Assembly (NCBI GenBank): GCA_913777665.1
Contig: CAJYTF010000022.1
Coordinates: 16,048 to 80,047 of the forward strand
Source of the DNA: an uncultured Myroides sp.
GTDB taxonomy: Bacteria > Bacteroidota > Bacteroidia > Flavobacteriales > Flavobacteriaceae
DNA: 64,000 nucleotides
Reading direction: 5' to 3'
The notes beneath the pieces are model-generated. The model did no database searches, had not been told where the DNA came from, and saw only the letters and a program-made list of their open reading frames with translations. A program made the translations under genes and the position numbers. Shown here one piece after another: positions 53,033 through 59,171 of this stretch; within the stretch, counting starts at the first letter, position 1; every line of letters starts with the position of its first letter.

Positions 53033-53989
53033 TTATTGTTTTATGGGTTCTGCATAAGGCTGTGCTTTTTTACCGAAAACCGAAATGTTTATGTAACGAC
53101 GTGGGTTTAATTTAACGTCTTCTAACAAACTGTTTAATTCTTTTGTTGCCGATTCCAAGTTGTTGTACAGCTGCTCTTCTTTCATTAATTTACCAATGTT
53201 TCCTTTGCCGCTGTTGGCATCGCTCATCATTTTATCAAGGCTTGATGCTGCATTATCGAATTTATTTAAGATATCTTGTAATTTTTGTAATTGGATCTTA
53301 TCTAAATCGTTAGAAAAAGCCGAAAGATTTTTAGATGTGGTGTTGAAATCTGAAACAATATTACTGATTTTAGCTTCGTTGCTTGATACAATTCGGTCAA
53401 ACTTACCCGTTATGGCATTTGCGTTACCCATTGTAGCGTTTAATTTAGCCAAAGCTTCTTGCAGGTTTTTCTGCGCAGCAGGATCTAACGTTTTGTTTAT
53501 GGTTTGCACCAAGATGTTTACATTGTAAAGAACAGAATCTAATTTTTTTGCGATAGGATCTACTCGTTGCCCTAAATCATCAATTAAACCTGCCATTTGT
53601 CCCGATTGCAAATAATCGCCGCTTTTTGCCAAGGTTGGATCGTTATAATTAATTTGAAGTGCAATTTGTTTTCCTCCGATTAAATCAGGCGAATAAATTA
53701 CGGCTTTAGATGAGATCGGAATATCAACCTTATCGGTCATTACAATTTCTACCAACAGTTTTCCCTGACCTTTTAACGAAATATGATGCACCTTACCTAC
53801 TACCATTCCGTTTATTGTTACAGATGATGCGGTTGAAAGACCTTCGACATTATCGTATTCCACAAAAAATGTTCTGGAACTGCTAAAAATGTTTTTACCA
53901 TTTAAAAAGGTGTATCCCCAAATTAACATTCCTATAGATAATAACACTAGTACAGCGGTTTTTACCTCTCTTGATATAGCTATTTTCAA
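53033..53989 (-). CDS. MlaD/MCE family lipid-transport protein
   Basis: N-terminal TM, FFVEYDNVEGLSTASSVTINGMVVGKV MCE motif, coiled-coil C-terminus. Confidence 0.92.
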   Translation of the reverse strand: MKIAISREVKTAVLVLLSIGMLIWGYTFLNGKNIFSSSRTFFVEYDNVEGLSTASSVTINGMVVGKVHHISLKGQGKLLVEIVMTDKVDIPISSKAVIYSPDLIGGKQIALQINYNDPTLAKSGDYLQSGQMAGLIDDLGQRVDPIAKKLDSVLYNVNILVQTINKTLDPAAQKNLQEALAKLNATMGNANAITGKFDRIVSSNEAKISNIVSDFNTTSKNLSAFSNDLDKIQLQKLQDILNKFDNAASSLDKMMSDANSGKGNIGKLMKEEQLYNNLESATKELNSLLEDVKLNPRRYINISVFGKKAQPYAEPIKQ

Positions 53990-54005
53990 TTTTCTATTTT
54001 TTTAG

Positions 54006-55172
54006 TTACTTGTTAATTGCTTCTTTAATGCTTATTTTTTTACCGTTTTTGTAGGCAACCAAAAACGCAGAATTGTATCCTTTGTTTTTAGCTACTTCCA
54101 ACGCTTTACGTGCATGATCGTAATCGGTAGTTTCATTGTAAAAATACTTAAACATATTACCTTCTTTAACCATAGAAATATTGTTTAAGCCGTTGAAGTT
54201 ACTTGGCGTTAAGGCAATATCTTTACTGCTTGCAGAAATTTGAACTTTAAACGAAACACCGGTTTTTGTAACTGTTGCAGGTTTAGATGCATCTACAGAC
54301 GATGTTTTAGCAGGTTCCGGAGCTTTCTGTTTTATGGTATCGACCTTTTTAGGCTCGTCTTCTTTAATTGGAGTTTCTCTTGGTTTTTGAGCCGAAATAT
54401 TCTCGCTTGCTGAATGATACTGCTTTTTATAATCGATGATTGCATTGGCAATTGATCTCGCTAATTCGTTTCTACCTTCTTCACTGTTTAAATATGCCCC
54501 TTCTTCGCTGTTCGATAAAAATCCTAATTCAACCAAAACACTCGGCATAAAAGCGGTGTACAAAACCACAAACGGAGCTTGTTTAACACCTCGGTTTTTT
54601 CTTTCGGCATCGTTTGTAAATCGAGTTTGAACTTTCGAAGCCAGCTCAATACTCTGCGTTACAAACTGTTCCTGTATTAACGTTAACCCAATTAATGATT
54701 CGGGTTTGCTTGGATCGTAACCAGAATACGATGTTTCATAATTATCTTCTAACGTAATAACGGCATTCTCTTTTTTAGCAATTTCTAAATTCGATGCGTT
54801 TTTACTTGTACCCATTATAAAGGTTTCAGTTCCTGTTGCACTTGGTGCGTTAGAAGCGGCATTTGCGTGAATGGATACAAAAATATCTGCTTTTTCACGG
54901 TTGGCTATTTCGGTACGTTCTCTTAACTCTAAAAAAACATCGGTTTTACGAGTATAAATAACGCTTATTCCTTTATCTCTTTTTAACAAGTCGCCTACCT
55001 TTTCGGCAACGTCTAAAACAATTTTCTTTTCTACATAATTTCCGCGCACAGCACCAAAATCTTTACCTCCGTGACCGGGATCTAAAACCACTTTAAAATT
55101 TTGGGCATAAACCGTTGATCCAACACACATTAAAAAGGCACCAATAGCAACTTTAAAGTTATCTATAAACAT
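54006..55172 (-). CDS. N-acetylmuramoyl-L-alanine amidase with C-terminal SPOR-like region
   Basis: VVLDPGHGGKDFGAVRG, FVSIHANAA, VLVELGFLSNSEEG; C-terminal SFKVQISASSKDI...YNSAFLVAYKNGKKI. Confidence 0.93.
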   Translation of the reverse strand: MFIDNFKVAIGAFLMCVGSTVYAQNFKVVLDPGHGGKDFGAVRGNYVEKKIVLDVAEKVGDLLKRDKGISVIYTRKTDVFLELRERTEIANREKADIFVSIHANAASNAPSATGTETFIMGTSKNASNLEIAKKENAVITLEDNYETSYSGYDPSKPESLIGLTLIQEQFVTQSIELASKVQTRFTNDAERKNRGVKQAPFVVLYTAFMPSVLVELGFLSNSEEGAYLNSEEGRNELARSIANAIIDYKKQYHSASENISAQKPRETPIKEDEPKKVDTIKQKAPEPAKTSSVDASKPATVTKTGVSFKVQISASSKDIALTPSNFNGLNNISMVKEGNMFKYFYNETTDYDHARKALEVAKNKGYNSAFLVAYKNGKKISIKEAINK

Positions 55173-55286
55173 AGCATATTTATATTTCGTTTCATATAAT
55201 AAAGTCTAAATTTTAAAAAATATCGAATTTCGGATTTTCGCACAAAACAAAAACCTATTCTAATTTACAAAAATAGTATATAAAAC

Positions 55287-55346
55287 TTGCATACAAAAGT
55301 AATATATCTCGTTTTTAACTCGATTTTACCTACAGCACGCTATTAA
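55287..55346 (+). pseudogene. Relic of the lptD 5' end
   Basis: TTG start reads MHTKVIYLVFNSILPTARY*, aligning with lptD MHRKVIYIVFNLILIPGALSK; upstream nucleotides also align. Confidence 0.7.
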
Positions 55347-55407
55347 GAATTAAAACGAATAAGAGATTTGCTTACCAAAAAAGTATTTTTACCCCCATTG
55401 TGTGTAA

Positions 55408-55570
55408 TTATTTCCACTACATAGAAACATTGACTTTTCTTATATTTTTAAAAGATTATGATAGACATTTTACTTCTCGCATAGAAAACTATGTGAAAAA
55501 TAATATAATTTCCAATCCTATCTTTTACAATTAGTAATAATTCTATTCGTCTATGTGGTTAATTTTTATT
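55408..55570. repeat. REP/MITE-like inverted-repeat element (copy A)
   Basis: CCACTACATAGA at 55414-55425, internal hairpin CATAGAAAACTATG at 55480-55493, TCTATGTGGTTAA at 55550-55562. Confidence 0.5.
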
Positions 55571-55602
55571 TATTTTGAATTACACCTAACGGTTTATTTT
55601 AT

Positions 55603-56364
55603 TTAGATTGAATTACTTTTTTTATAATCTCTAATAGCTCTTGCAATTGCAATTGCTAGCTCGTTTTTACCTTCTTCAGAATTCAAAAATTCTCCTTCTT
55701 CTTTGTTTGAAATAAAACCCAATTCAACTAAAATACTCGGCATAAGTGCACTATGCAAAACCCAAAACGGACCTTGCCTAACGCCTCTGTCGGTTCGTAA
55801 AACCTCATCTTTAAATCGAACCTGGATTTTAGATGCCAGATCAATACTTTGTTTGATAAATTGTTCTTGCATTAAAGTCAACCCTATTAAAGATTCCGGA
55901 CGATTTGGATCGTATCCTTCATAATGCTTTTCATAATTATCTTCTAGCGTAATAACGGCATTTTCTCGTTTGGCAACATCTAAATTCGCTTCGTTTTTAC
56001 TGATACCCATTATGTAAGTTTCGGCACCATAAGCAGCGGTATTCTTTGCGGCATTTACGTGAATCGATACAAAAACATCGGCTTTTTCGCGGTTTGCTAT
56101 TTTTGTTCGTTCGGCAACTTCAACAAAAACATCCGTTTTACGGGTAAAAATCACTTTAATATCTTTATCAAGCTTTAGCAGTTCGCCAACCTTTAAAGCA
56201 ACATCCAAAACAATTTTCTTTTCTACACAATTTCCACGCATCGCACCGGGATCTTTCCCTCCGTGACCGGGATCTAAAACTACTTTAAAATTTTGCGCAT
56301 AAACGGTTGATCCAACACACATTAAAAAGGCAGCACAAGCAGCTTTAACTTTATTTACAATCAT
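55603..56364 (-). CDS. N-acetylmuramoyl-L-alanine amidase, short paralog without SPOR-like tail
   Basis: VVLDPGHGGKDPGAMRG, FVSIHVNAA, ILVELGFISNKEEG; strongly similar to the 54006-55172 protein. Confidence 0.93.
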   Translation of the reverse strand: MIVNKVKAACAAFLMCVGSTVYAQNFKVVLDPGHGGKDPGAMRGNCVEKKIVLDVALKVGELLKLDKDIKVIFTRKTDVFVEVAERTKIANREKADVFVSIHVNAAKNTAAYGAETYIMGISKNEANLDVAKRENAVITLEDNYEKHYEGYDPNRPESLIGLTLMQEQFIKQSIDLASKIQVRFKDEVLRTDRGVRQGPFWVLHSALMPSILVELGFISNKEEGEFLNSEEGKNELAIAIARAIRDYKKSNSI

Positions 56365-56477
56365 GATTTATTTTATATTTTCGTTTCTTATTTAAAAGTC
56401 TAAAAGTAAAAAAAAATATTAGTAAGTTTGAAGTCTAAAAAACACACCTACCAATTTTACAAAATAGCTTTAAAAAG

Positions 56478-59171
56478 TTGCACAGAAAAGTAATATATAT
56501 CGTTTTTAATTTGATTTTGATTCCGGGCGCATTGTCAAAGGTTTCGGCACAAGAATTCCCTCATGTAAACAAGCGCTTAAATATTGAAAGTAAGAACGAT
56601 ACACTTACAAAAAATCTTATTCCTAATACAACTTTAGATACTGTAAAGCCCGTTAAAAATGACAGTGTAAAACCTAAACAAGGACAAAAATTAGAAGCGC
56701 CTATGTTTAGAACTGCGAAAGATTACGAAAAGCTGGATCAGAAAAATAAAAAGGTTACGTTGTACAATCAGGCGGTTTTTAAGTATCAGGATTACGAACT
56801 TACGGCGGGAATCATTATTTATGATTATGAAAAGGAAGAAGTTTATGCCGGCAGAATTAAAGATTCGTTAGGAAATTTAACGCAGCATCCGGTTTTTAAA
56901 CAAGGAACGCAGGTTGTTGAGCCAGATTCTATTCGCTTCAACACCAAAACAAAAAAAGCAATTGTTTGGAACACCCGTACAAAATATCAGGATTTTAATG
57001 TTAAGGCGGCGAAAACCAAAAAAGTAAACGATTCGGTTTACTTTATGAAAGATGTAATTTTTACAACGGCTGAAGATATTGAAAATCCAGAGTATTATTT
57101 CCGTACATCGAACGCTAAGTTTGTTCCTAACAAAAAAATTGTAACCGGAGTTACCAATTTGGTTATTGAAGATGTGCCTACGCCTATTGGTTTACCGTTT
57201 GCTTTTTTCCCGTTATCGCAAGGATCTGTTTCGGGGTTTATCATTCCATCTTTTGGAGATACCAATTTAAGAGGATATTATTTACAGAATGGTGGTTATT
57301 ATTTTGCCTTTAATGATATGGTTGATTTAACCTTATTGGGAGATGTTTACCAAAACGGAAGTAATGCTTTTAATGCGCAATCGCAATACCGCAAAAGATA
57401 CAAATACAGTGGAAATCTTAATTTAAGATATGAAACTTTGATTGATGGTGAACGTGGTTTTGACAATTATCAGAAAGCGAAAATTTATAATATTCAGTGG
57501 AGTCATTCGCAAGATGCAAAGGCAAACCCAACATCGCGTTTTTCGGCATCGGTTAACTTGGGTAGTAGTAATTATTTCCGAAACTCGTTAAACACGCAGA
57601 ATATCGGATCAAATATGAACAACACCTTATCATCATCGATAAGTTATTCAAAAACAATCCAGTCTGTTCCGCAGGTAAATTACACTATTTCTGCAAATCA
57701 TCAGCAAAATACCAACACGCAGCAAATTACAATGTCTTTACCAAATGTTCAGGCAAGTGTAGATCGCGTGTTCCCATTCGCACCAAAAAACGGAAGTAAA
57801 AAAGGTTTCATTCAAAACATTAACCTACAGTATAATTTAAGAGGAGAAAATAGAATTCAAACTACCGATTCATTGTTCTTTAAACCGGAAATGTTTAACG
57901 AAATGAATGCAGGTATCCAGCACAGTATTCCGCTGGCAACCAACTTTAAAGTCTTAAAGTATCTGTCGGTTACCATGACGGGAAATTATAACGAAACTTG
58001 GGTTTTAAATACGTTCGATCGTTTTTACAGTAATGAAACCGGGCAGGTTGAAACTGTAAGAAATAATGGTTTTGACAGTTATCGAACTTATAATTTCAGT
58101 ACGAATGTTGGAACAACCATTTATGGAACCTTCAATTTTAATAAAAATTCAAAAATTCAGGCAATACGTCACGTAATGCGTCCGGCTGTTTCTTATTCAT
58201 ATACTCCAAGTTTTGATCAATATTACGATACTTACGCAATTGACGCATTAGGTACAACCATGCAAGAATATTCTCGTTTTCAGGGTACGTTGTTTGGCGA
58301 ACCTAACAAAACCATGTCTAATATGGTAGGTTTATCGTTAGGAAACAATTTTGAAGCTAAAGTGCGTGATGATGAATCTACAACCGGCGAACCTAAAAAA
58401 GTGATGTTATTAAATTCGTTAAACTTTAATACATCGTACAACTTTACTGCCGATTCGTTAAAATTAGCACCTATTGGTATGAGTGCGAATACCAATTTAT
58501 TAAAAGATAAGTTACGATTGAATTTTGGTGCAAGTTTAGATCCGTTAGCGCTTGATAATAGTGGCAGAAGAATTGATAAGTTTAACATTGCAAATGGTGG
58601 AAGTTTACTACGTTTAACCAGTGCCAACATTACAGTAAATTATTCTTTGGCAAGTACCGATCCGTTATTTGGTGGAAGTCCGAAACGTGAAGACGAAGTA
58701 GATCAAAATGTTCAGAATGGTGGCCGTGGAGATGATTTATTTGGGCAGTCGGTGGATTTGGCAGATAGACAAAAATCGATGTTTGATGACAAAAAACGCG
58801 AAAAACCAAAAACATCATTTTATAACACCGAAATTCCTTGGGATTTAACGCTGGCATGGAGTTTAACCTATAACAATGCAAGCAGAAATTCAGAAATATC
58901 GAACAACTCGTTAATGGTTTCCGGAAACGTAACATTAGCTCCGGGCTGGCTGGCTGGTTTTTCTACCGGATACGATTTCAAAAATAAGGGTGTAACTTAT
59001 ACCCAATTACGTTTTGAACGAGATTTGAAGTCATGGCGAATGGATTTTTCTTGGATTCCGAATGGATATTACAAACAATGGAACTTTTTCATTGGAATTA
59101 AATCGTCGATCCTACAAGATATCAAATACGAAAAAAGAAATGCTGCCGAACGTCGTTTCCGAACCAGATAA
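56478..59171 (+). CDS. lptD: LPS-assembly protein LptD / OstA-like
   Basis: TTG start; AVFKYQDYELTAGIIIYDYEKEEVYAG, PIGLPFAFFPLSQGSVSGFIIPSFG, long beta-barrel C-terminus. Confidence 0.9.
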   Translation: MHRKVIYIVFNLILIPGALSKVSAQEFPHVNKRLNIESKNDTLTKNLIPNTTLDTVKPVKNDSVKPKQGQKLEAPMFRTAKDYEKLDQKNKKVTLYNQAVFKYQDYELTAGIIIYDYEKEEVYAGRIKDSLGNLTQHPVFKQGTQVVEPDSIRFNTKTKKAIVWNTRTKYQDFNVKAAKTKKVNDSVYFMKDVIFTTAEDIENPEYYFRTSNAKFVPNKKIVTGVTNLVIEDVPTPIGLPFAFFPLSQGSVSGFIIPSFGDTNLRGYYLQNGGYYFAFNDMVDLTLLGDVYQNGSNAFNAQSQYRKRYKYSGNLNLRYETLIDGERGFDNYQKAKIYNIQWSHSQDAKANPTSRFSASVNLGSSNYFRNSLNTQNIGSNMNNTLSSSISYSKTIQSVPQVNYTISANHQQNTNTQQITMSLPNVQASVDRVFPFAPKNGSKKGFIQNINLQYNLRGENRIQTTDSLFFKPEMFNEMNAGIQHSIPLATNFKVLKYLSVTMTGNYNETWVLNTFDRFYSNETGQVETVRNNGFDSYRTYNFSTNVGTTIYGTFNFNKNSKIQAIRHVMRPAVSYSYTPSFDQYYDTYAIDALGTTMQEYSRFQGTLFGEPNKTMSNMVGLSLGNNFEAKVRDDESTTGEPKKVMLLNSLNFNTSYNFTADSLKLAPIGMSANTNLLKDKLRLNFGASLDPLALDNSGRRIDKFNIANGGSLLRLTSANITVNYSLASTDPLFGGSPKREDEVDQNVQNGGRGDDLFGQSVDLADRQKSMFDDKKREKPKTSFYNTEIPWDLTLAWSLTYNNASRNSEISNNSLMVSGNVTLAPGWLAGFSTGYDFKNKGVTYTQLRFERDLKSWRMDFSWIPNGYYKQWNFFIGIKSSILQDIKYEKRNAAERRFRTR

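Follow-up and report, generated by a model that had tools for sequence, protein, structure and literature searches.

A segmental duplication beside lptD in Paenimyroides and the probable splitting of an overlapping bidirectional promoter

Duplication-degeneration-complementation, or subfunctionalisation, describes duplicates whose copies lose different regulatory elements and jointly keep the ancestral set, and a yeast GAL study is reportedly related to the subfunctionalisation of regulatory elements. No paper came up in a literature search that combined subfunctionalisation, bidirectional promoters and bacteria. Sigma-A promoters space their -33 and -7 elements about 17-23 bp apart. In Bacteroidota these elements read TTTG at -33 and TAnnTTTG at -7 (PMC6847099, PMC9723704). 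The SM5 promoter class of Flavobacterium psychrophilum has the box TAnnTTGY instead and stands before LPS-related genes among others; the LPS-related genes that it serves include lptE (PMC9723704).

The locus described here lies in a window of 64,000 nucleotides from an uncultured Myroides sp. (contig CAJYTF010000022.1), whose rpoB is 97.4% identical to that of Paenimyroides ummariense, a close relative. Two amidase genes, am1 and am2, precede a divergently oriented lptD (Table 1), and the gene order mce - amidase - lptD is kept in the relatives examined. An earlier note, made from the window's letters, had described the amidases as tandem paralogs with a fragment of the lptD 5' end left between them; the sequences and coordinates that it quoted are all present, including the relic TTG at 55287, the lptD TTG at 56478 and both minus-strand amidases, and the TTG that it took as the lptD start is supported by conservation across the family. 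Both amidases match Amidase_3 over the full domain (Pfam PF01520) and keep its conserved motifs, whose residues we take to have metal and catalytic roles. The SPOR-like tail claimed for am1 fared unevenly: the strand/helix order of a predicted model is SPOR-like, but Pfam gave no SPOR match (PF05036) in the tail even at E<=10. A fold search listed amidase-domain matches first and returned nothing specific to the tail.

Table 1. Features of the amidase-lptD locus, in coordinates of the window.
Feature	Coordinates	Strand	Remarks	Basis
MlaD/MCE-domain gene (mce)	53033..53989	-	downstream of am1; conserved neighbour	Pfam, relatives
am1	54006..55172	-	distal full-length Amidase_3 protein, 388 aa, C-terminal small domain	ORF, Pfam PF01520, predicted model
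Duplicated unit, distal copy	54411..55327		amidase catalytic part, intergenic region and lptD up to codon ~14	alignment
Place of lost lptD-directed -7 box TAAGTTTG	55219..55240	+	destroyed in 7/7; approximate	alignment
Putative am1 -7 box TATTTTTG	55268..55275	-		consensus match, relatives
lptD 5' relic, homologous part	55287..55327	+	overlaps putative am1 promoter	alignment
Putative am1 -33 element TTTTG	55294..55298	-	18 bp from -7 box, inside relic codons 3-4	
Conserved 18-bp block AAGAATTAAAACGAATAA	55345..55362		between relic and MITE-like repeat	spacer comparison
MITE-like dispersed repeat, 203 bp	55392..55594		flanking repeats 55384-55391 and 55595-55602	
am2	55603..56364	-	253-aa amidase, catalytic domain only	ORF, Pfam, dN/dS, motif comparison
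Duplicated unit, proximal copy	55609..56518		homologous to 54411..55327	alignment
Putative lptD -7 box TAAGTTTG	56423..56430	+		consensus match, relatives
Candidate am2-directed box TATTTTGT	56459..56466	-	after 1-bp deletion; fits SM5 TAnnTTGY, no longer TAnnTTTG	
lptD	56478..59171	+	TTG start, 897 aa, LptD_2	ORF, Pfam, relatives

Local DNA alignment of 54000-55600 with 55600-56620 runs unbroken from 54411/55609 to 55327/56518 with a score of 697. The intergenic regions alone score 100, against a mean of 24 and a maximum of 44 for 1000 dinucleotide-preserving shuffled pairs. For the piece of the relic ORF by itself the score is 58 (shuffled mean 14, maximum 26); the resemblance thus lies far above that of shuffled AT-rich sequence, the outcome which the earlier note had allowed might undo its proposal. 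The two copies are adjacent and in the same orientation, with homology through coding and non-coding parts, and this end-to-end homology bears out a tandem duplication of amidase, promoter and lptD 5' end. Homology in am1 begins at the end of the catalytic domain, at about codon 254, exactly where am2 stops. A segment of about 920 bp, which begins just past the catalytic domain of the amidase and crosses the divergent intergenic region to about codon 14 of lptD, was copied in tandem in an ancestor of a Paenimyroides clade; a copy that starts there, in the amidase linker, would leave an lptD-proximal am2 without a C-terminal domain and a distal copy that ends in lptD codons, as is observed. The missing tail of am2 most simply reflects the point at which the duplication started, rather than later divergence, a later deletion being a possible alternative.

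At the single-copy divergons of relatives, the lptD-directed box TAAGTTTG is followed by the amidase-directed box TATTTTTG and, 11-16 bp further on, by the lptD TTG, and the amidase -33 region falls within the opening codons of lptD. The consensus pair TAnnTTTG...CAAAnnTA is found at 49 of 53 lptD/amidase divergons of Flavobacteriaceae (shuffled mean 0.4, maximum 3) and in its strict form at 39 of the 53, loci which are mutually related and are not independent trials. The am1 boxes agree with both parts of the sigma-A consensus, TAnnTTTG at -7 and a -33 match at a spacing of 18 bp, and the am1 -7 box is unchanged in all seven duplicated genomes and in close single copies. This arrangement of facing boxes is observed directly, and consensus, conservation and the pattern of loss suggest that they function as amidase and lptD promoters; the two starts would then face each other about 20 bp apart, with each transcript crossing the other promoter. 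As this places the amidase -33 element within the coding start of lptD, any duplicate with a working amidase promoter would have had to include that start.

The order am1 - spacer - am2 - lptD is present in seven Paenimyroides genomes, from a small set of environmental bacteria: the window genome (G000), P. ummariense (G107), P. baculatum (G311), P. viscosum (G027), G022, G175 and G207. In their distal copies, the spacers, the amidase box is kept in 7/7, with both the -7 and the -33 element unchanged, and the lptD-directed TAAGTTTG in 0/7; in the proximal copies the lptD box is kept in 7/7 and the ancestral amidase box in 0/7. The five closest single copies carry both boxes, so that the sequence states are those of an ancestral region with both elements and of copies that lost opposite ones. 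These seven genomes represent about three lineages and the box counts are non-independent, which limits their statistical weight (three lineages each, Fisher p 0.1). The proximal amidase -7 box was hit by a 1-bp deletion in six genomes, in which the -33 element is also altered, and by substitutions in G207, where the lesions are unlike those of the other genomes on both sides. What decayed is the lptD-directed half of the distal copy and the amidase-directed half of the proximal copy. At the level of sequence, the two copies of the control region degenerated in complementary fashion, the distal one keeping the amidase direction and the proximal one the lptD direction, by which one overlapping bidirectional promoter may have been split into two one-way promoters. 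The full sequence of events, in which duplication of facing promoters was followed by complementary loss and am2 was kept on a changed promoter, is considered probable. A possible benefit of such a split is that lptD would be freed from interference by amidase transcription.

Amidase copy number in relatives, which the earlier note had suggested comparing, sets the seven duplicated genomes against single-copy outgroups (G308, G084, G072 and G018); G263 and G278, which belong to the same clade, also have a single amidase at the locus. A frameshift interrupts am2 in the draft assembly of P. baculatum. The short amidases (am2) are monophyletic (100/100) beside the local long ones, and the local single copies join am1 and am2 in a single group (90/87), in which am1 and am2 are closer to each other than to outgroup homologs; on these trees the duplication is local to the Paenimyroides clade and single in origin. 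A tree of rpoB and gyrA makes G207 the first branch (92/98) and joins G278 to G022 and G175 (94/99). Since first-branching G207 carries the duplication, the event would predate the split of the clade, and G263 and G278 would either have lost the second amidase or have exchanged the locus. The single copies of these two genomes are nested among duplicated genomes and have both promoter halves intact, which requires either loss before degeneration or exchange of the locus, and the grouping of the G263 locus with G207, which its rpoB and gyrA do not share, suggests exchange. It is rather unlikely that gene conversion or exchange of the locus between species produced part of the complementary pattern, in place of independent decay after a single vertical duplication. 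Besides the disagreement at G263, am1 and am2 of the window lineage resemble each other unusually closely at their 5' ends (87% across the initial 60 nt of the catalytic domain), as conversion would have it; against this, the am1 and am2 trees mostly match the species groups and the lesions of G207 are its own. At issue here is the number of times that the split came about; that the two halves are separated is not in question.

In five genomes, 48 of 55 columns of a spacer core show no variation, while elsewhere in the spacer the figure is 43 of 140 (p 3e-13), and this best-conserved part of the spacer, over which no reading frame is conserved, contains the first ~41 bp of the relic and is still conserved at a synonymous divergence among the compared genomes of 1 or more. 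These ~41 bp appear to be conserved as an amidase promoter, the -33 region that they hold being the best explanation of their conservation. Detectable lptD homology stops after about codon 14; extension of the relic past GTTTTTAA, including a comparison of AAGAATT... with later lptD codons, aligned no better than shuffles. The simple decay that the earlier note had assumed for the lptD fragment was not borne out, as its first part lies where the spacer is most conserved. An ordinary tandem duplication that left a decaying lptD 5' pseudogene fragment, the relic having no functional meaning, would account for a frame that is not kept (stops come at 11-26 codons depending on species), for the loss of the lptD-directed box and for the end of homology past codon ~14, but is judged improbable, since the relic core has outlasted that synonymous divergence as the most conserved spacer part and agrees with the -33/-7 pair that single-copy divergons retain. 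Retention of the relic as coding sequence, for a small peptide or a leader ORF, is highly improbable and was rejected: the first ~11 relic codons are similar in all spacers, but the frames are not conserved and end at differing points (11 codons in G022 and 19 in G000), the lptD-directed box that stood upstream has been lost, and the nucleotide constraint extends into the non-coding part upstream of the relic TTG. Least probable of all is a derivation of am1 and am2 from an older full-length tandem amidase pair of Flavobacterium by later truncation and spacer insertion, which was rejected by the tree under the model used: such pairs do occupy the same place beside lptD in many Flavobacterium species, but they stand only 27-133 bp apart (between matches) with no lptD piece, am2 groups with Paenimyroides am1 (forcing it onto the other lptD-proximal copies is rejected, p-AU 2e-68), and the spacer reproduces the region on the lptD side at the level of DNA.

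Two further elements are found in the spacer. The block AAGAATTAAAACGAATAA is conserved in six of the seven spacers, with one mismatch in one, and has one near-identical genomic site, barely above a reversed-pattern control. The MITE-like repeat makes up 203 of the 275 bp that separate the relic homology from am2; among the spacers, those of the window genome and of P. ummariense are the only two that contain it. It has six copies including that of the window, the other five being near-full with similar ends, and 8-9 bp flanking repeats as read from the alignment; the ends of the window copy show GTGTAATT as their sole clean inverted match. A search with the end sequences for a full-length relative gave too many chance matches to be used.

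With the split promoter as the preferred reading, expression of am2 has to be accounted for. Its dN/dS between species is 0.04-0.10, with 0-0.095 for am1 and similar values for mce and lptD, and am2 is therefore a selected gene, under purifying selection. No TAnnTTTG was found on the am2 strand up to lptD +300 in six genomes. Transcription of am2 would have to come from a changed promoter, perhaps the TATTTTGT box in these six and a different site in the remaining one. Across four genomes the TATTTTGT box does not vary (14/14, compared with 23/33 in the rest of the leader), which supports its use weakly, as these bases belong to the lptD leader too. Membership of the SM5 class takes in a TAnnTTGY box, a transcript that begins 5-6 bp downstream of it and regulation of the SM5 type; the box is present in the six genomes and absent at that place in G207, and is a lead only, since any 1-bp deletion in a T run followed by T produces the fit automatically. 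That the loss of one base from the -7 box moved am2 from the housekeeping sigma to the SM5 class while am1 kept the old regulation is doubtful; if true, the switch would be a new envelope-linked regulation for the amidase neighbouring lptD. The proximal copy of G207 keeps CAAAAG in the -33 region and has a TAATTTTG box 36 bp before am2, which may thus still be read from a sigma-A promoter in that genome.

Overlapping face-to-face promoters would tie lptD, an essential gene of outer-membrane assembly, to a cell-wall amidase across Flavobacteriaceae, and the importance of this coupling can be tested by way of coupled and uncoupled species. The Paenimyroides duplicates amount to a natural mutagenesis experiment, in which only the boxes for the needed direction survive in each copy, and this supports the promoter assignments. 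The locus points to a route by which a bidirectional bacterial promoter may be split, and suggests that an apparent pseudogene fragment can persist as the promoter of another gene.

In comparing the locus with described systems, the am1 and lptD-directed boxes fit the -7 consensus of the Bacteroidota sigma-A promoter, and am1 also fits at -33; the lptD box differs in having no clear -33 element, and the sites here are known from sequence matches. The candidate am2-directed TATTTTGT box fits the SM5 consensus of F. psychrophilum in six genomes; however, the fit in Paenimyroides is an automatic result of the T-run deletion. Like the Amidase_3 N-acetylmuramoyl-L-alanine amidases CwlV (1jwq), AmiA (8c2o) and AmiC (4bin), am1 and am2 keep the conserved motifs; am1 differs in adding a small C-terminal domain without a Pfam match, which am2 lacks. 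The likeness to duplication-degeneration-complementation is that the Paenimyroides copies have lost different elements and together retain the ancestral pair, whereas the difference is that the unit divided here would be an overlapping bacterial bidirectional promoter of two unrelated genes, only one of which was duplicated whole.

The spacer between the full-length amidase gene (am1) and its short, catalytic-domain-only neighbor (am2) carries a MITE-like dispersed repeat, of which five further near-full copies (84-90% identical) lie elsewhere in the genome. It is absent from the corresponding spacer of P. viscosum, P. baculatum and the remaining duplicated genomes (G022, G175 and G207). The 18-bp block AAGAATTAAAACGAATAA lies about 80 bp upstream of the predicted am1 start, amid otherwise variable spacer sequence.

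Features in and around the am1-am2 spacer
Feature	Position	Remark
MITE-like repeat, 203 bp	55392-55594	insertion immediately past am2 stop codon
AAGAATTAAAACGAATAA	55345-55362	kept in 6 of 7 spacers of duplicated genomes
am1 5' end	55112-55172	
am2 5' end	56304-56364	
lptD TTG start	56478	

In the window lineage the am1 and am2 5' ends, spanning the signal peptide and domain start, are unusually similar, as recent gene conversion would give. In the P. baculatum draft assembly (locus L095) am2 is interrupted by a frameshift, which may be a real loss or an assembly error. The TTG start of lptD recurs at the homologous position in nearly all Flavobacteriaceae loci read, and both here and in relatives the predicted amidase promoter has its -33 box on one side of this codon and its -7 box on the other.

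The mce/amidase/lptD locus of G263 (L094), a single-amidase genome of the same Paenimyroides clade, clusters with that of G207, whereas its rpoB and gyrA do not, suggesting that the locus has been swapped between Paenimyroides species. Tandem full-length amidases adjoining lptD, with operon-like spacing, are widespread in Flavobacterium (loci L013, L015, L016, L023, L040, L041 and L045-L062), and this pair is older than and separate from the Paenimyroides am1/am2 pair.
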